DNA from: Actinomycetes bacterium
GTDB taxonomy: Bacteria > Actinomycetota > Acidimicrobiia > Acidimicrobiales > CADCSY01
Reading direction: 5' to 3'
Assembly (NCBI GenBank): GCA_025464025.1
Contig: JAODBP010000061.1
Location: 1-9,600 of the forward strand
DNA: 9,600 nucleotides
In this document: positions 1,877 through 8,475 of the stretch, piece by piece
Numbering within the stretch: the first letter of the stretch is position 1
Layout of the letters: the number at the start of each line of letters is the position of its first letter
Notes under the pieces: model-generated
Told to the model about the DNA's origin: nothing
The model's database searches: none
What the model saw: the letters and a program-made list of their open reading frames with translations, nothing else
Program-made: the position numbers and the translations under genes

Positions 1877-2476
1877 GTGCCCGCCACGAGGTCGGCGGAC
1901 GAGCGGCTCGTGCGAGCGGTGCTGACCGCCGTCGTGGGCGTCCCGGCGGTCGTGGCTGTTGGGGTGGTGGTGCACCGGCACGGGCAGGCCGAGGCGTTCG
2001 TGAGCTGGCCGGTCATCGGTGTGGCCGTGCTCGCCGCCGTCGTCGCCGTGCTCGGCGTGTGGACCCGCCAGCCCGATTCGGCGCTGGTCGGTCTCGCCGC
2101 CCTGGTGCCGGCGGCGATCCTGATCTACGTCGTCCCTGCCGTCGCGCCGCTCGCCTTCGTGGTCGTGGCGCTCGTCGTCCTGGCCGGGCTGGCGCTTCGG
2201 GTCGGTGGCTTCGCTTCGGCGCTGGCCACGTTCGCCGCCCTGTTCCTCCTGCTGCTGACCGTCGTCCAGGACCCGGCCGTCGAGTGCGGCGACCACAACA
2301 CGACGACGAGCAGCGGTCCGTGGTGGATCTCGACCGCGGACGACACGTTCGCCAGCGTCACCGGCGGCAGAGACGGCACGTCCCGAGGCACCGTGAAGGT
2401 GGGCGACGACGTCTACGGCTATGCCTGCCAGGGCGGCCGACTCGTGGAGTTCGGGCGCGACGAGCTCGACGACTAG
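1877..2476 (+). CDS. unrecognised membrane protein, about five TM helices with C-terminal two-cysteine domain
   Basis: A 199-residue protein starting at GTG 1877, directly after the TAG of the previous gene; in-frame GTGs at 1910 and 1919 are alternatives. I do not recognise the family. Hydrophobic stretches suitable for membrane helices lie at about residues 14-32, 43-62, 68-86, 88-107 and 112-130. The remaining 69 residues (131-199) are polar and contain Cys137 and Cys184, a Trp pair (149-150), and an acidic end (DELDD). With five helices and a short N terminus carrying basic residues inside, the C-terminal domain would face outward, where the two cysteines could form a disulfide; this topology is inferred by eye. 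No Shine-Dalgarno sequence is obvious at the TAG-GTG junction, so translation probably relies on coupling to the SnoaL-like gene. Its stop codon overlaps that of the convergent rad50 gene. Confidence 0.6.
   Translation: MPATRSADERLVRAVLTAVVGVPAVVAVGVVVHRHGQAEAFVSWPVIGVAVLAAVVAVLGVWTRQPDSALVGLAALVPAAILIYVVPAVAPLAFVVVALVVLAGLALRVGGFASALATFAALFLLLLTVVQDPAVECGDHNTTTSSGPWWISTADDTFASVTGGRDGTSRGTVKVGDDVYGYACQGGRLVEFGRDELDD
2473..2476. other. CTAG serving as stop codon on both strands
   Basis: The palindrome CTAG gives TAG at 2474-2476 to the membrane-protein gene on the + strand and TAG at 2475-2473 to rad50 on the - strand. The two genes therefore converge with overlapping stops and no intergenic space. 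Any terminator for either unit must lie inside the opposite gene; I found no convincing hairpin with a T-tract near here. Confidence 0.9.
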
Positions 2477-4746
2477 ACCCCGCCGAGGACCGTGGCGCGG
2501 GCCCGGCGGCCGGGGAGCTTCTCGACCTGGATGGCGTTGGGGAGCTGCTCCTTGATGGCGCTGTCGTGGGTGACGACGAGCACCTGGCGGAACCGACCCT
2601 TGAGCCGCTCGAGGGCGAGGAGCATGCGCTCCTTGCGCTCGTCGTCGAGGGGGCCGAACACCTCGTCGAGCACGAGCAGCCCGACGGCGCCACCGGACTG
2701 GAAGCGCACGTGCTCGCTGATCGCCACCCGGAGGGCGAGGTTGGCCAGATCGACCTCGGAGCCGGAGAAGCGGTCCATCCCGTAGGTGCGGCCAGCGTCG
2801 GTGATCTGGATCTCGTAGGTGTCGGCGTCGACCTCGAGCCGGTCGTACTCGTGGTCGGTGAGCTCGGCGAACAGCTCCGCGGCCTGGGCCGCCAGCCGGG
2901 GCCCCACCACGGACACGACGTTGTTCCGGAAGTCGGAGAGCAGGTCGCCCAGCCGGCCGAGGTGGCGGGCCCGCTCGGCCAGGTCGGCGATGTCGGCATG
3001 GGCCTGCTTGCCGTCGTCGAGCCGGGTGGTCGCGGTGGTGACCACCGACTCGGCCTGCGCCGCCCGCTGGCGCACGGCGTTGGCGGTGTCGGTCGCGAGC
3101 TTGAGGGCCTGGCGCGCCTCGGACCGGGCCTGCTTCGCCGCCTCCAGGTCAGCCGGCTTGAACGCCAGGCCCTTGACCTTCTCGCGCAGGGCGTCGCGCG
3201 TGGCGGTGGCCTCCTCCAGCCGGGCTCGGGTGGCGCCCAGCTCCGTGGCCACCTGGGGTGCCCGCTCGAGCCGGGCCTCGAGCTTGGCCACCTCGGTGGC
3301 GGCCCGGCGTCGCACGGCCAGCTCCTGCTTCGCCTCGTCGGCCGTGCCGGCGACGTCGCCGGCGAGCGCCCGGGCCTGGGCGAGCACCGCCTCGGCGTCG
3401 AACCGGCGGGCGGCGTGCTGCTCCCACGTGGCCCAGGCCTGCTGGGCCGCGGTGAGCGCCGTGGTCGCCTCCCGGGCCTCCTTGGCCGCCAGCTTGGCCA
3501 CCGACTCGGCGTCGGCCAGCTTCGAGCGCTCGGCGCTCAGGCGATCGCTGGCCGCCCGGACCTCCTCGGTGCGGTGGGCCGCCACCTGCTCGAAGGCGTC
3601 GCCCAGGTGCTGCCCGCACACCGGGCAGTCCTCGTCGGCCGACAGCTCGGACGACCGCGCGGCGGCGGCCTCGGCCCGGACCAGCTCCTGCTCGGCGGCC
3701 CGCACCGAACCGGCCAGCTCGGCGGACGCCGCCGCGGCCTGCTCGGCCGCGGCGCGGGCGGTCTCGGCCACCGAGTCATCGGGCCGCTCGGGGGCGTCGA
3801 GGTCGGGCAGGACGGCCAGGGCGGCGATCGCCGACTCGACCGCCTCGAGCGCCCGGAGCCGGGCCTCCAGCTCGTCGAGTCCCTCGGCCTGCGGGCGGAG
3901 CTCGGCCAGCGCGCCCTCGACGTCGGCCAGCGCCGCCTGCTCCGCGATGAGCGACTCGACCCGGTCGGTCGAGGCGTCGACGATCGACGCCGCAGCCTTG
4001 CCCTCGACCACGAGCTGGTTCCAGGTGCGGGCCAGGTCCTCGAGCTGCTCGAACGCCGCCTCGGCGGCGTCGTTGGAGGTGACGGCCTCGGCCAGCGTCG
4101 CCTCGCTGCCGGCGACCTCGTCGACGATGGCTTCGGCGTGCTGCTTCGCCGCGGCCAGAACCTCCTCCAGCTCGCCCAGGTCGGGCAGCCGGGCGGCCAG
4201 TCGCTCGTGGTCGGCCCGGGCGTCGCGGGCATCGGAGCGGGCCGAGTCGCGGGCCTTGTCGAGCGGGGTGATGCCGAGCATCCGCAGGACGAGCTCGCGC
4301 CGCTTGGCCGTCCCGTGGGCGCTGAACGCGGCGACCTGCTTCTGCTCGGCGAACACCGACGACCGGAACGACGTGTCGTCCATGCCGATGACCGAGTGCA
4401 CGTAGGTGGCGACGTCGCGCACGCCCTCGGCCACCTGCTGGTTGTTCCAGTGGGCCTCGGCCTTCACCGTGTGGTTGATGCCGGTGATCGTGCGCCGGAC
4501 CAGGTACAGGTGGCCCTCGTGCTCGAACTCGACCTCGGTGACGCAGTCGGCGTTGACGCCGCTGGTGCGGATCTGGTCGTTCGACGTGCGGGACTTGCCG
4601 TAGAGCGTCCACCGGATCGACTCGATGAGGGCCGACTTGCCGCCCCCGTTCGGTCCGTAGATGCCGACGAGGCCGGCCGGGACCTCGAGCTCGCACTCGT
4701 CCTCGTAGACGCGGTAGTTCCGCAGGTACAGCCGAGTGATGCGCAC
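2473..4746 (-). CDS. sbcC: Rad50/SbcC-type SMC-family ATPase with zinc hook
   Basis: A 757-residue ATPase, the partner of the Mre11 nuclease encoded just upstream; it tethers and unwinds DNA ends using ATP. It starts at GTG 4746, giving MRITRLYLRNYRVYED, the typical Rad50/SbcC first strand; the frame is open upstream but lies over mre11. Motifs: Walker A GPNGGGKS (31-38), Q-loop Gln135 in VFAEQKQ, zinc-hook CPVC with Cys374 and Cys377 almost exactly in the middle, ABC signature FSGSE (660-664), Walker B LLVLDE with Asp694 and Glu695, D-loop GPLDD and switch His727 in VVTHD. Regions of about 165-370 and 385-600 are Ala/Glu/Arg-rich heptad-like coiled coil. The protein is shorter than E. coli SbcC (about 1050) and archaeal Rad50 (about 880), so its arms are short. 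The signature is unusual, with Phe for Leu and Ser for the second Gly of LSGGE. It may be annotated simply as an AAA or SMC family ATPase. Confidence 0.93.
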   Translation of the reverse strand: MRITRLYLRNYRVYEDECELEVPAGLVGIYGPNGGGKSALIESIRWTLYGKSRTSNDQIRTSGVNADCVTEVEFEHEGHLYLVRRTITGINHTVKAEAHWNNQQVAEGVRDVATYVHSVIGMDDTSFRSSVFAEQKQVAAFSAHGTAKRRELVLRMLGITPLDKARDSARSDARDARADHERLAARLPDLGELEEVLAAAKQHAEAIVDEVAGSEATLAEAVTSNDAAEAAFEQLEDLARTWNQLVVEGKAAASIVDASTDRVESLIAEQAALADVEGALAELRPQAEGLDELEARLRALEAVESAIAALAVLPDLDAPERPDDSVAETARAAAEQAAAASAELAGSVRAAEQELVRAEAAAARSSELSADEDCPVCGQHLGDAFEQVAAHRTEEVRAASDRLSAERSKLADAESVAKLAAKEAREATTALTAAQQAWATWEQHAARRFDAEAVLAQARALAGDVAGTADEAKQELAVRRRAATEVAKLEARLERAPQVATELGATRARLEEATATRDALREKVKGLAFKPADLEAAKQARSEARQALKLATDTANAVRQRAAQAESVVTTATTRLDDGKQAHADIADLAERARHLGRLGDLLSDFRNNVVSVVGPRLAAQAAELFAELTDHEYDRLEVDADTYEIQITDAGRTYGMDRFSGSEVDLANLALRVAISEHVRFQSGGAVGLLVLDEVFGPLDDERKERMLLALERLKGRFRQVLVVTHDSAIKEQLPNAIQVEKLPGRRARATVLGGV

Positions 4747-4748
4747 GG

Positions 4749-5870
4749 CTACCCGATCGACTCCTCGACCGCGCGCGAGAGGTAGCCGGCGCCCAGCTCC
4801 TCGAGCTTCCTGCGGTCGTAGCCCATGAGGTCCTGGTGCTCGACGTAGCGCTGCCAGCGCGACGCCATCGAGTCCATGTCGGGGATCTCGACGGTCATCT
4901 CGGTGCCGGCGAACGACGGCTCGAGCTTGAGGTGCAGGGCGGCGCCGGCGACGTCGCGGACGCGCTGGAGGTCGAGGAGCTTGTAGGCCTCGGGGTCGAC
5001 GCCGTCGACGAACAGCCGGGCCACGGCGCCCTCGGGCACCGACGCCGCCCGCTGGAGCACGAGCTCCTCGACCTCGGCCGGCGAGAGGCCGAGGGCGGCG
5101 ACGGTCTCGAGGGTGACGAGCCGCCGGTTCGAGGGCAGGGGCACGTGGGTGCACCTCCCGGTGTCGGTGTCGAGCACGACGATGCCCTTGGGCTTGTCGG
5201 GGTCGTCGGCGAAGGTGAACGTGTCGGTCGAGCCGGCGTACCACATGCCCTCGCTCACCGGGATGTGGAAGTGGTAGTGGCCGAGCAGCACGAGGTCGGC
5301 CTTGATGAGCCCGGCGTCGATCTCGATCTCGTTGATGTCGGCGTAGCGGGGCTCGACCTGGGTGATGCGGGGGTGGGTGAGCAGCAGGTTCGACTTGTCG
5401 AGCGAGCGCTCGCGGTCGGCCTGGTCGAGCGCCTCGAGCGTGGCGTCGACGGTGAGCATCTGCGGGATGCAGTGGACCTTCAGCCCGGGCAGCTCGAACG
5501 ACGCGTACGAGAGCCGGGTGGCGAACATCACCTCGGGGAACGTGTCGGCCAGCGCCGAGTAGGGCGAGCCGGTGCCCGGCAGCCGGGGCGTGTCGTGGTT
5601 GCCGCTGATCGCGACCAGCGGCACGCCGTGGTCGCGGATCTTGAGCAGGGCCCGCTGGGCCACCCGGAACGAGCGGTAGGTGGGGCGGGGGTGGTCGAAC
5701 ACGTCGCCCAGCCACACGACGAGGTCGGGCGACTGGGCCAGGGCCAGGTCGACCGCGGCGGTGAACGACTCCTCGAAGTCGAGCTCGCGCCGGTTGACGC
5801 CGGTGGCGGCATCGGTCACCGACAGGTAGGCCCGCCCCAGGTGCGCATCCCCGAGCGCCACGACCTTCAT
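4749..5870 (-). CDS. sbcD: Mre11/SbcD-type DNA repair nuclease (metallophosphoesterase)
   Basis: A 373-residue protein starting at ATG 5870, whose A is also the last base of the herA TGA; the frame is open upstream only across herA. It is the Mn-dependent 3'-5' exonuclease and endonuclease subunit of the Mre11-Rad50 complex. Calcineurin-like phosphoesterase motifs appear in order: GDAHLG (Asp8, His10), GDVFDH (Asp56, His60), GNHD (Asn91, His92, Asp93), His166 in LLLTH, and GHYH (His198, His200). All metal ligands expected for an active enzyme are present. Residues of about 240-320 fit the capping domain that contacts DNA. The C-terminal part (about 335-373), with RYVEHQDLMGYDRRKLEELG, is helical and charged and probably docks onto the base of the Rad50 coiled coil. 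Length is close to archaeal Mre11 and E. coli SbcD (about 400). A 2-base gap separates its stop from the rad50 start. Confidence 0.94.
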   Translation of the reverse strand: MKVVALGDAHLGRAYLSVTDAATGVNRRELDFEESFTAAVDLALAQSPDLVVWLGDVFDHPRPTYRSFRVAQRALLKIRDHGVPLVAISGNHDTPRLPGTGSPYSALADTFPEVMFATRLSYASFELPGLKVHCIPQMLTVDATLEALDQADRERSLDKSNLLLTHPRITQVEPRYADINEIEIDAGLIKADLVLLGHYHFHIPVSEGMWYAGSTDTFTFADDPDKPKGIVVLDTDTGRCTHVPLPSNRRLVTLETVAALGLSPAEVEELVLQRAASVPEGAVARLFVDGVDPEAYKLLDLQRVRDVAGAALHLKLEPSFAGTEMTVEIPDMDSMASRWQRYVEHQDLMGYDRRKLEELGAGYLSRAVEESIG

Positions 5871-7450
5871 CAGTCGACCAGCGCCGAGATGTTGGGAGCG
5901 GCCACGGCCCGGGGCGCGGGCGGAGGCTCGACCGACTTCACCACGTCGTCCCAGAACGCCACCCGGGCCGGCACGGCGAACGGGGCCTCGAGGTTGGCGA
6001 TCAGGCACTCGCCGGGCATGAGCGTCTGGATCTCGCCAGCCGAGGCCGAGAGGTCCTGCTTCGAGCTGCCCCGGAGGATGTTGCGGTCCTTCTCGTCGGC
6101 CAGGCCGAGCACGAAGAACGTGTTGAACTGCGACAGCAGCTCGTCATCGAGCAGCTTGGGCTGCTGGGTGATGGCGGTGAGGCCGACCTTGAACTTCCGG
6201 CCCTCGCGGGCGATCCGGGGGAAGACGTTCGACTCGCGGTCGCTGCCCTTCGAGAGCACCCGCTGGGCCTCCTCGAGCACCATCGACACGACCGGGAGCT
6301 GCTCGTGGCGCTCGGGGTCGTCGAGGTAGGCCGCCGACCACCGCTCGAGGATCTTGCGGGCCAGGAACGACGCGACCAGCACCTCCTCGGTGGAGCCGAG
6401 GCCGCTGACGTCGACCAGCACGACCCGGCCCTGCTCGAGCTCGCGCAGCACGGCGCCGCCGACCGACACGTTGGGGTCGGCCGAGACGCACTGGAGCTCG
6501 ACGATGCGCCGGGCCCGCCGGTGCACGACCTGGAGCGTGTTGAGGGCGACCCGGCCGTTGAGCTCGAGGTCGCGGAACTCGGGGAGCTGGTCGAGCTGGG
6601 CGAACTCGAGCAGCCAGGAGAGGCCATCGCCCCCGTAGTGGCGCTCGAGCTCGAACAGGGCCTCCTCCTGGGGGCGGCTCCAGTCGTAGGCCGTGCGCAG
6701 GTCGTCGACGGTGAGGTCGGCCAGCGACAGCTTGAGCGTGGAGGTGTTGGGCAGCGGGCGGGCGGCGAACGTGCGCAGCCGGTCGGCGGCCCACGGGTGG
6801 CGGGGCAGCTCGGTGCGGTACTCGCCGTGGGGGTCGACGATCAGGAGGCCGTAGCGACCGGCCGCCTGCATCACGCCACCGGCCAGGACCTTCATGAGGT
6901 TGGACTTGCCCATGCCGGTGGTGGCGAAGATGCCCACGTGCATGGCCAGGCTCTTGCCGGGGATGCCGACCTCGAAGTCGACCACCGTCTCGCCCGAGCG
7001 CAGCTTGCCGATCGGGAGGTCGCCCATCTTGGTGCGGAGGAACTCGAAGTCGGCCGCCTCGGGGGCCAGCACCCGGGAGAACTGGGTGGGCAGGCTCTTC
7101 GGCTTGCGGAACTCCTGCTGGCCCCACTCGTCGGGCGGCGTGAGGTAGCCCAGGCAGCGGCAGTCGGCCACCCGGTAGGTGCGGCGGGCCTGCTCGTGGA
7201 GGGGGTGGGCGCCGGCCTCGCCCCGGGCGTCGTCGGCCAGCATGGTGCCGGCCACCCGCTCGGCCCAGCCCGGCTCGCGGTGCTCGGAGCCGTAGGACAC
7301 GTCGACGACACGGAACAGGTAGCGGCGCCCGGTCTGCTCGTCGACCGCCACCAGCAGCTCGCCGAGGAACAGGTCCTCGTCGGGCCCGGCCCGGAACACG
7401 CCGTCGAGCACGTTCTTGCCGAACAGCCGGCCCTTCGTCTCCGTGGTCAT
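5870..7450 (-). CDS. herA: HerA-type hexameric DNA translocase (DUF87 ATPase)
   Basis: A 526-residue HerA/FtsK-superfamily ATPase. HerA forms a hexameric ring that pumps duplex DNA into the NurA nuclease during end resection. It starts at ATG 7450, overlapping the nurA stop. The first 150 or so residues fit a HAS-barrel domain. Motifs: Walker A ATTGMGKS (176-183, Lys182), HerA-type DPHGEY (206-211), Walker B VVSMVLEEAQ with Glu393 and Glu394, then REGRKFKVGLTAITQQP (416-431), which holds the conserved arginine region and sensor-like glutamines, followed by LLSQFNTFFVLGL (438-450). Walker A has Met where Ser is common (TGMGKS versus TGSGKS), a tolerated change. The C-terminal 21 residues are Pro/Ala-rich (EPPPAPRAVAAP) and end in ISALVD, resembling a flexible tail with a short terminal peptide. 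Defence-type HerA proteins pair with SIR2 or DUF4297 nucleases; here the NurA and Mre11-Rad50 neighbours argue for repair. Automatic pipelines may call it an ATP-binding protein. Confidence 0.93.
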   Translation of the reverse strand: MTTETKGRLFGKNVLDGVFRAGPDEDLFLGELLVAVDEQTGRRYLFRVVDVSYGSEHREPGWAERVAGTMLADDARGEAGAHPLHEQARRTYRVADCRCLGYLTPPDEWGQQEFRKPKSLPTQFSRVLAPEAADFEFLRTKMGDLPIGKLRSGETVVDFEVGIPGKSLAMHVGIFATTGMGKSNLMKVLAGGVMQAAGRYGLLIVDPHGEYRTELPRHPWAADRLRTFAARPLPNTSTLKLSLADLTVDDLRTAYDWSRPQEEALFELERHYGGDGLSWLLEFAQLDQLPEFRDLELNGRVALNTLQVVHRRARRIVELQCVSADPNVSVGGAVLRELEQGRVVLVDVSGLGSTEEVLVASFLARKILERWSAAYLDDPERHEQLPVVSMVLEEAQRVLSKGSDRESNVFPRIAREGRKFKVGLTAITQQPKLLDDELLSQFNTFFVLGLADEKDRNILRGSSKQDLSASAGEIQTLMPGECLIANLEAPFAVPARVAFWDDVVKSVEPPPAPRAVAAPNISALVD

Positions 7451-8421
7451 GCCCGCTCCATCAGGTCATGGCGGTCGGCGAAGGCCCGCTCCCGGACCTC
7501 GAGGGGAACCCCGGCGACGTCGAACAGGTCGTCGAGCCGGTGGCGCAGCTCGGATCGGAGCCAACCCGGGCAGGCGGCCAGCCGGTCGGCCACCGACAGG
7601 GGATACGGGTAGCCGGGGAAGGCGGCGTCGTCGCACAGGGCGGACAGGGCGGCGAGCACCGGCTCGGGGTCGACGCCCAGGGGCAGGTCGACCCGGAACG
7701 AGAAGCGGGCATCGGGGTCGAGCCGGGCGGCGACCACCTGCACGCCGCCCACGTCGCTCCGGGTGCGGGCGATCGGCGCCCACCACGTGGACCGGGGCCC
7801 GAGCAGCGTCTCGGCCTCACGCTCGAGCCAGCCCAGCAGCGGGGCGCCGCCCCGGGACAGCGACGAGTGCTTGGTGACCCCGGCGAGCAGCACGCCGCGC
7901 TCGGCGGCCCGGGCCAGCAGACCGGCGAGGAACGTGGACGGCACCCGCCAGTCGGGCTGGAGGTCGCCGTCGACCAGCACCAGGGCGCCGGCCTCGGCCT
8001 CCTCGACGCAGCGCTGCACGGCCAGCCACTCGTCGTAGTCGCGCAGCAGGTTGACGTCGACCGACCCGACGACGTCGAGCCCGAGCGCCTCGAGGGCCGC
8101 CACCCGGTCGTCGGACCCGCCCAGCACGGTGGCCCGCAGCTCGCCCTCGTCCTCCAGCACGCACGACCCGGCCACGTAGCGGACCCGGGCCGCCCGGGTG
8201 ACGAGGAGCTGGATGCAGCGAGCGTCGGCCACCAGGGCCTGGCCGCCGTCGACGGCCCACACCTCGATCGGCTCCACGCCGCGCTCGAGGGCCCGGACGG
8301 CCACGTCGCCGGTGAACTCCAGGTCGCTGGTCCCCGTCGGGTCGGCCAAGGTCGTGGCCGACCCGGTGAGGAGCGCTGCCAGCCGTTCAGCTGCTGCCTC
8401 GAGCGAGCTCATGGGTTCCAT
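7447..8421 (-). CDS. nurA: NurA-type 5'-3' nuclease
   Basis: A 324-residue protein from ATG 8421, chosen for an AGGG about 10 bases upstream. ATG 8412 and TTG 8442 are in-frame alternatives, the last without a visible ribosome-binding site. NurA is a toroidal dimeric, Mn-dependent RNase H-like nuclease working at the mouth of the HerA ring. Visible motifs: AVDGG with Asp58, an acidic RDYDEW segment with Glu131 about 20 residues before LVLVDGDL (Asp151), TKHSSL with Lys184, FRVDLP (Arg243, Asp245), and the C-terminal GYPYPLSVADRLA. Archaeal NurA, as I recall, has Tyr and His eight residues apart in the last motif; here Tyr271 is kept but position 279 is Asp. Length is near the family norm of about 330-340. 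It is first in the operon and its stop overlaps the herA start by four bases. The family call rests on motif order plus the herA neighbour. Confidence 0.88.
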   Translation of the reverse strand: MEPMSSLEAAAERLAALLTGSATTLADPTGTSDLEFTGDVAVRALERGVEPIEVWAVDGGQALVADARCIQLLVTRAARVRYVAGSCVLEDEGELRATVLGGSDDRVAALEALGLDVVGSVDVNLLRDYDEWLAVQRCVEEAEAGALVLVDGDLQPDWRVPSTFLAGLLARAAERGVLLAGVTKHSSLSRGGAPLLGWLEREAETLLGPRSTWWAPIARTRSDVGGVQVVAARLDPDARFSFRVDLPLGVDPEPVLAALSALCDDAAFPGYPYPLSVADRLAACPGWLRSELRHRLDDLFDVAGVPLEVRERAFADRHDLMERA

Positions 8422-8433
8422 GATGACCGAGCC

Positions 8434-8475
8434 CTGTGACAATTACACGGCTGTGATTCGATTGTCGCCATCACA
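8434..8475. repeat. clustered direct and inverted repeats, candidate operator
   Basis: CTGTGA occurs twice in direct orientation (8434-8439 and 8451-8456), 17 bases apart. TGTGAT (8452-8457) and ATCACA (8470-8475) form a perfect six-base inverted repeat with a 12-base spacer. GACAAT (8438-8443) and ATTGTC (8461-8466) form another perfect six-base inverted pair with a 17-base spacer. They lie in the spacer between divergent nurA and the TSUP transporter gene, overlapping the proposed nurA promoter and the likely transporter start. A dimeric repressor or activator site is plausible. The TGTGA half-sites recall the CRP/FNR superfamily, but the spacer is wider than the usual six bases. Confidence 0.4.
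8442..8468 (-). promoter_or_regulatory. possible promoter for the nurA-herA-mre11-rad50 operon
   Basis: Read on the - strand, GCGACA (8468-8463) resembles a -35 box (4 of 6 against TTGACA) and TGTAAT (8447-8442) a -10 box (5 of 6 against TATAAT). The spacer is 15 bases, shorter than ideal. A transcript would begin near 8435, about 14 bases ahead of ATG 8421, putting the AGGG at the very 5' end. This is the least GC-rich spot I noticed in the window and the only spacer upstream of nurA. The call is weak because box scoring was by eye. Confidence 0.3.

Follow-up and report, generated by a model that had tools for sequence, protein, structure and literature searches.

An archaeal-type nurA-herA-mre11-rad50 operon in part of the Acidimicrobiia, and a promoter palindrome that many members share with replication and repair genes

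Operons that join nurA, herA, mre11 and rad50 have been described in thermophilic archaea. In the scheme published for their products, Mre11-Rad50 opens DNA ends and a HerA hexamer feeds the DNA to a NurA dimer (PMC4351679, PMC4641729, PMC12977600, PMC5715905), and the nuclease activity of NurA is reported to be essential to its in vivo function in Sulfolobus (PMC4351679). As regards bacteria, a review already states that HerA/NurA homologs occur in Actinobacteria (PMC8708640), and homologues of sbcD and sbcC are reported downstream of hepA, the HerA gene of Oceanithermus profundus (PMC5448004). Here we describe a stretch of 9,600 nt (the window; contig JAODBP010000061.1 of assembly GCA_025464025.1) from an Actinomycetes bacterium of the Acidimicrobiales, CADCSY01, that carries all four genes on its minus strand in the order nurA, herA, mre11, rad50. 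It represents a new clade of a known operon type; what goes beyond print is a palindrome-marked tie to genes of replication and repair, together with the lack of an ordinary SbcD. Among the literature matches listed, none deals with the four-gene operon in Acidimicrobiia and none with the palindrome.

7447..8421, minus strand: nurA, RNase H-fold nuclease, 324 amino acids (open reading frame, predicted fold, invariant catalytic residues)
5870..7450, minus strand: herA, hexameric DNA-pumping ATPase, 526 amino acids (Pfam and solved relatives by sequence)
4749..5870, minus strand: mre11, metallophosphoesterase nuclease, 373 amino acids (Metallophos, eight invariant metal-site residues)
2473..4746, minus strand: rad50, SMC-like ATPase with a CxxC zinc hook, 757 amino acids, GTG start (AAA_23/SMC_N)

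The archaeal operons that we compared (L072, labelled Euryarchaeota, and L063, Thermoplasmata) contain the same four families with identical catalytic positions, and L072 also has the same gene order, nearly gapless. The acidimicrobial set differs from them in its bacterial host, mostly with RecBCD or AdnAB markers, in its promoter palindrome and in the SGS signature of its Rad50. Zixibacterial and Oleimmundimicrobium-type operons (L053, L055, L051, L054, L075) have the same genes in the same order in a bacterium, with HerA proteins 45-48% identical, but lie on the opposite side of a branch in all four gene trees, and their nurA upstream regions are without the palindrome at up to two mismatches. 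Deinococcus and Thermus, like the acidimicrobial operon, have a bacterial NurA-HerA pair.

In the window nurA and herA overlap by four bases (ATGA) and herA and mre11 by one (TGATG), and a two-base gap separates mre11 from rad50; from these junctions the four genes would be co-transcribed as one unit. The description in the initial annotation of a complete, translationally coupled operon with intact catalytic motifs, in a probable actinobacterium, was borne out on both counts: the residues examined are invariant bar one gapped Rad50 row, and the closest relatives are Acidimicrobiia, the nearest HerA (locus L001, from a metagenome-assembled genome (MAG) labelled Acidimicrobiales) being 95% identical over 464 columns. 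Gene identity, gene order and intact active sites, like the shared promoter element described below, are read from sequence, and the NurA fold is predicted. HerA matches the Pfam DUF87/HerA central domain (E 1.4e-21), and among solved proteins its closest sequence match is HERA 4d2i (E 3.8e-21); the solved structures nearest to Mre11 and Rad50 are entries of those names. We take the best solved relatives of these three proteins to be mostly archaeal. The NCBIfam archaeal equivalogs, whose cut-offs delimit named archaeal groups and not whole families, are matched below cut-off (HerA NF040937, 92.1/800 bits; Mre11 NF041031, 57.1/500; Rad50 NF003034, 138.8/700). HerA K182, D206, E393/E394 and R415/R418 (Walker A and B and motor arginines) are kept in 73/73 rows, and the phosphoesterase metal ligands of Mre11 (D8, H10, D56, N91, H92, H166, H198, H200) in 57/57. 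Rad50 keeps the residues of its zinc hook, signature, Walker B and H-loop (C374/C377, S661/G662, D694/E695 and H727) in 40/40 rows and Walker A K37/S38 in 39/40, the remaining row being gapped at both positions; its signature reads SGS in 22/22 acidimicrobial rows and SGG in 16/18 others.

The window NurA is divergent: it scores 20.6 bits against the Pfam NurA profile (gathering score 21), with the C-terminal part alone aligned, and no PDB match was found by sequence at E <= 1. A model built from an alignment of 43 relatives is confident (predicted local distance difference test, pLDDT, 93.3), and Sulfolobus NurA heads its structural matches, ahead of Thermococcus NurA and TdpB in the VIA-align table. 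On this predicted structure the protein has the RNase H-type NurA fold, and the different fold that the initial annotation had considered for it finds no support. Residues D58, E131, D151 and K184 are invariant in 63/63 rows, acidimicrobial and outside; they were matched by motif reading, not by alignment with the Sulfolobus protein, to D58, E116, D133 and K202, the catalytic residues reported for S. islandicus NurA (PMC4351679). Position 281 is variable and non-catalytic, and a few residues earlier lies a His/Asp site: in the displayed alignment rows, acidimicrobial NurA has an Asp after the YPYPL motif and most outside rows have a His.

One scan of a genome collection confirmed 132 HerA relatives, and the best 80 were analysed: 41 belong to the acidimicrobial clade, 4 are deep actinomycetal or unlabelled bacterial, 5 of the Oleimmundimicrobium type, 14 Zixibacterial or of the Fibrobacteres-Chlorobi-Bacteroidetes (FCB) group, and 16 archaeal. 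All four genes were found at 44 loci, in identical order at every one (44/44); where there is room for all four, the full set is present at 31 of 43 loci overall and at 20/20 of the acidimicrobial clade. At 12 acidimicrobial loci herA and mre11 are spaced 0.8-6.2 kb apart, and the intervening genes at the split loci examined look ordinary by eye, without a profile check (MarR-like, NUDIX-like and others). The mapping over the class that had been proposed at the outset found HerA (E <= 1e-20) in 4 of 198 genomes of a class sample, in 6/6 of one acidimicrobial family and in 22/32 of another; the operon is a trait of some Acidimicrobiia and not of the class as a whole. The clade is known mostly from environmental DNA, one member being an Acidiferrimicrobium genome without a MAG label. 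Near-identical operons occur in L033, a bin labelled Acidobacteriota, and in L034, labelled Actinomycetes; L033 is probably misbinned.

Trees of the four proteins were quick maximum-likelihood trees, and because they are unrooted, include several long archaeal rows and were recruited through HerA, so that Mre11 and Rad50 relatives without HerA are missing, they neither establish nor exclude an archaeal origin. In all four, a single branch unites the acidimicrobial and deep actinomycetal genes (support HerA 100, Mre11 95, NurA 96, Rad50 100), which suggests that the four genes have kept company from the deep actinomycetal split onward, if not for longer. In the HerA and Mre11 trees a long stem leads to a single acidimicrobial group. 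Among the best 80 of the 132 HerA relatives, those closest to the clade from outside come from other Actinomycetota, from Zixibacteria and from archaea, chiefly Thermoplasmatota. The window, compared only with itself, has an even base composition, and the genes beside the operon are ordinary by Pfam. Beyond rad50 lie an AtuA-type domain, an amidohydrolase and a SnoaL-like protein; beyond nurA lie a TauE/SafE exporter and a DUF6855 protein. The end of rad50 overlaps a convergent small open reading frame (1877-2476) by four bases (window 2473-2476).

The region upstream of nurA contains two further features, which overlap.

8441..8458, minus strand: palindrome AATCACA-GCCG-TGTAATT, a likely operator, upstream of nurA
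8420..8448, minus strand: inferred core promoter, with a -35 GTGTAA (8448-8443) inside the palindrome, a 17-bp spacer and a -10 CATCAT (8425-8420)

Upstream regions of 200 bp were scanned for the palindrome at up to two mismatches, with shuffled controls. Its consensus, AATNACA-N4-TGTNATT, lies mostly 37-48 bp ahead of the nurA start and was found upstream of nurA at 20 of 37 acidimicrobial loci (shuffles 2/1850). Where mre11 is split from herA, the palindrome precedes mre11 at 7 of 12 loci (shuffles 0/600), as against 1 of 22 where mre11 adjoins herA. At the same threshold it was absent upstream of nurA in all 21 loci that are neither acidimicrobial nor deep actinomycetal (21/21). The acidimicrobial loci analysed contain 32 distinct sites with at most two mismatches versus 9, 4 and 5 in three shuffles, and one further shuffle gave 19 strand-wise matches; because of this background, two-mismatch sites are weak taken alone. 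At zero or one mismatch, 49 strand-wise matches compare with 1, 0 and 0 in the shuffles. The 3' half of the palindrome overlaps a -35-like GTGTAA or TTGTAA, with a NANNNT -10 at 17 bp and a start codon 5-8 nt further; this geometry, defined after inspecting the same rows and in 7 of them with an in-frame start codon other than the first choice, was seen in 20 of the 21 nurA rows that have the dyad and in 2 of the 8 mre11 rows, versus 45 of 5000 random positions. Such an arrangement would imply leaderless transcripts, and in the window an alternative nurA start codon at 8412, 7 nt past the -10, is a possible leaderless start giving 321 amino acids. No LexA box (CGAAC-N4-GTTCG; two LexA patterns, up to three mismatches) was found in the ~300 bp upstream of the window nurA, and PafBC-type and LexA-type boxes gave no consistent signal upstream of the nurA loci. 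A LexA-like box, AGAACGTGTGTTCG (one mismatch), lies upstream of nurA at L041 4703-4716, in a deep actinomycetal operon without the palindrome.

The palindrome is not confined to the operon. A search of 15 operon-bearing genomes with AATNACANNNNTGTNAYT at up to one mismatch gave 86 forward and 82 reverse matches, palindromic sites being counted on both strands; its reversed form gave 4 and 2. Sixty regions from 13 of the 15 genomes were fetched (L132-L191), of which 59 contain 60 sites and L190 none; the operon's own sites, ten on G012/G007 contigs, one of G021, part of those of G023 and all of those of G020 and G022 were left out. When the 60 sites were assigned by tblastn to reference genes, 11 lay before dnaE, 10 before whiB, 7 before nrdJ, 2 each before uvrD and trpG and 1 before recA. 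The dnaE, whiB and nrdJ sites are each in a different genome, and five whiB sites have a macro-domain gene on the opposite side. Example genes were checked by Pfam and NCBIfam, dnaE passing NF004226 (DNA polymerase III alpha equivalog) and nrdJ NF005122. By coordinates, two unassigned sites, at G008:C53 ~109350 and G009:C7 ~7534, stand just upstream of small stand-alone PDDEXK_1 (RecB-nuclease-like) matches; such genes occur in many class members. The nrdJ of G009 (L154 2402-4999) contains a LAGLIDADG/intein segment.

The recA promoters of the clade were examined for both kinds of element. A classical SOS box (at most one mismatch) is present in 24/24, and the palindrome in 12/24 at up to two mismatches (shuffles 1/480) and 21/24 at up to three (6/480), starting in many 14-36 bp past the SOS box (L192-L219; L211, L220 and L221 are left out of the set, and L200, L217 and L218 were not located). 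Because half-sites can coincide with the -10 TACACT, these recA palindromes are suggestive only. The recA match of G004, G012, G013, G014, G023 and G164 is split at residue ~200 within one long open frame and is intein-like. The lexA promoter of G012 (L139), the only one examined, contains three CGAAC-N4-GTTCG boxes, one perfect and two nearly so, and lacks the palindrome even when four mismatches are allowed. For that one genome the palindrome was rejected as a LexA box, and the element accordingly appears to belong to a non-LexA regulator. A WhiB-like protein is a candidate only, for the sole reason that its own promoter bears the site.

The initial annotation had proposed that the set may be the main end-processing system of its lineage or an extra one. 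It is additional to RecBCD/AdnAB in most bearers and not the sole resection route, since 32 of the 43 bearer genomes have at least one of the RecC and AdnB markers. RecC (PF04257) passes its cut-off in 26 of 43 bearers versus 10 of 37 genomes without the operon. For AdnB, a clear nuclease domain (E < 1e-20) was found in 8 of 43 bearers (G013 has only a contig-end fragment) and in 58 of 198 genomes of the class sample, as detected with a single nuclease domain from G004 that distant AdnB may escape; AdnAB, which the initial annotation had named as telling against its reading if joined by trees that place the genes with ordinary paralogues, does occur in some relatives. Replacement of RecBCD/AdnAB by the operon was rejected on these counts. 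The other 11 of the 43 bearers, which include G013, gave neither marker, and any of these genomes may be incomplete. In the AdnAB-like pair of G004 each protein combines UvrD helicase with PD-(D/E)XK domains, and the closest solved chains to its AdnB-like member are 6ppu_B, 7sjr_B and 6ppr_B, listed as UvrD/REP or DNA helicase, which we take to be mycobacterial AdnB. The frame upstream of that gene (L087 8924-12961) shows glycosyltransferase matches before UvrD/PDDEXK and is probably fused or over-extended.

For SbcCD the picture is different. No SbcD over the TIGR00619 cut-off was found in the 43 operon-bearing genomes versus 90 of the 194 class-sample genomes that have no operon (Fisher 9e-11, kinship ignored). 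The SbcCD of Acidimicrobiia belongs to the same superfamily as the operon Mre11-Rad50 and probably overlaps it in end-cleavage function. The operon Mre11 does not group with these ordinary paralogues, a possibility also considered initially: 11 SbcD proteins of operon-less class members are parted from it by a branch with support 100, in a tree for which a motif filter did not extract class SbcD L101 and the later loci L108-L111, and the window Mre11 scores 48.4 bits against TIGR00619, below the cut-off of 77.65. Lineage loss may explain part of the SbcD absence, since 0/10 operon-less members of G017's family pass the cut-off either, two of them at 75-76 bits. Assembly gaps matter as well, since the bearers G001 and G011 show no SbcD/Mre11 match whatsoever, that of their own operon included. 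Below the cut-off, G248 has one full-length SbcD-like match of 60.6 bits and G028 has three matches. Direct replacement of SbcCD by the operon is unproven, given SbcD-less kin that also lack the operon and these gaps; we read the operon Mre11-Rad50 as the one clear complex of this type that bearer genomes have and claim no direct swap.

Most likely, and in our judgement fairly probably, the operon serves chromosomal break-end processing coordinated with replication, beside RecBCD/AdnAB and with an SbcD-type role. Mre11-Rad50 would recognise and clip DNA ends, possibly blocked ones, after which a HerA hexamer would pump the duplex into a NurA dimer, in a putative physical complex with ATP-driven nuclease activity; NurA would degrade the DNA, leaving single strands for RecA. 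In the acidimicrobial clade the machine would act beside RecBCD and/or AdnAB and supply the Mre11/SbcD-type complex. Since dnaE, nrdJ, a WhiB-like gene and at times uvrD or recA are preceded by the palindrome too, co-expression with replication and repair genes is probable in members that bear it at nurA or at a split-off mre11. Complex formation, resection polarity, leaderless transcripts and in vivo regulation are what we infer in this scheme. More tentatively, and with slightly less than even confidence, we suggest that Acidimicrobiia have an undescribed non-LexA regulon in which a palindrome over the -35 couples dnaE, nrdJ, a WhiB-like gene (possibly an autoregulated regulator), UvrD-type helicases and recA (beside its SOS box) to an archaeal-type resection operon, for replication-coupled break repair with the machine in the role of SbcCD.

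Several observations weigh against break-end processing tied to replication. At up to two mismatches, 17 of the 37 acidimicrobial and 4/4 deep actinomycetal nurA upstream regions have no palindrome, and the loci that have it at a split-off mre11 have none at nurA (7/7). Its overlap with the inferred -35 means that core-promoter constraint may account for some of its conservation. Beyond the operon, 27 of the 60 sites were assigned to no reference gene, the reference genes were picked after recurrent genes had been seen, and orthologous sites from related genomes are not independent. The coexisting RecBCD/AdnAB could leave the module non-essential. Of the four trees whose comparison had been envisaged initially, all share the acidimicrobial and deep actinomycetal branch but differ beyond it, the Oleimmundimicrobium-type set grouping with archaea in NurA (90) and with Zixibacteria in Mre11 (95) and Rad50 (98). 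Finally, a 2026 study reports that Thermococcus HerA-NurA cuts both strands, leaving no apparent overhangs, and calls a role in resection into doubt (PMC12977600).

The operon might instead encode a defence nuclease, with HerA-NurA degrading phage or plasmid DNA and Mre11-Rad50 sensing free ends, by analogy with HerA-Sir2, HerA-DUF4297 and TdpAB. We consider this unlikely, as the set is retained over two families (HerA in 6/6 and 22/32) and on a common branch in four trees, unlike mobile defence genes, and as its promoter element is common to dnaE, nrdJ and whiB in many members. The window HerA scores far under the cut-offs for anti-phage HerA (NF042943, 47.0/800 bits; NF042944, 39.6/850), although it is also under those for archaeal repair HerA (92.1/800 and 72.3/970).

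Somewhat more doubtful still is a reading in which the two halves have separate jobs, Mre11-Rad50 as an SbcCD equivalent for hairpin and blocked-end cleavage and HerA-NurA in chromosome segregation or another translocase task, with the operon a historical linkage. The linkage is indeed dispensable, mre11-rad50 lying away from nurA-herA in the 12 split loci, 7 of which have the palindrome at mre11 and not at nurA, and the missing SbcD in 43 bearers fits such a division. In intact operons, on the other hand, the palindrome precedes nurA and thus serves all four genes, and Mre11 of Sulfolobus acidocaldarius is reported to interact with HerA (PMC2288612). Least credible by a wide margin is a recent transfer from archaea or Zixibacteria of a decaying passenger without a host role: its rarity in the class sample (4/198) and the Zixibacteria and archaea among the relatives outside the phylum would favour it, but active sites conserved clade-wide largely refute decay, and the single group on a long stem in the HerA and Mre11 trees, the even base composition (within the window only) and the clade-specific promoter element all argue against it.

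If break-end processing coordinated with replication is indeed its function, a bacterial clade runs an archaeal-type four-protein resection set beside RecBCD or AdnAB and without ordinary SbcCD, and the role of HerA-NurA, disputed for archaea between resection and antiviral degradation, can be asked in a bacterium. The shared palindrome would be a regulatory link and a starting point toward the regulator of replication and repair genes. The dnaE/nrdJ-like promoter element in many members suggests that the operon is a built-in partner of chromosome replication and not a curiosity.

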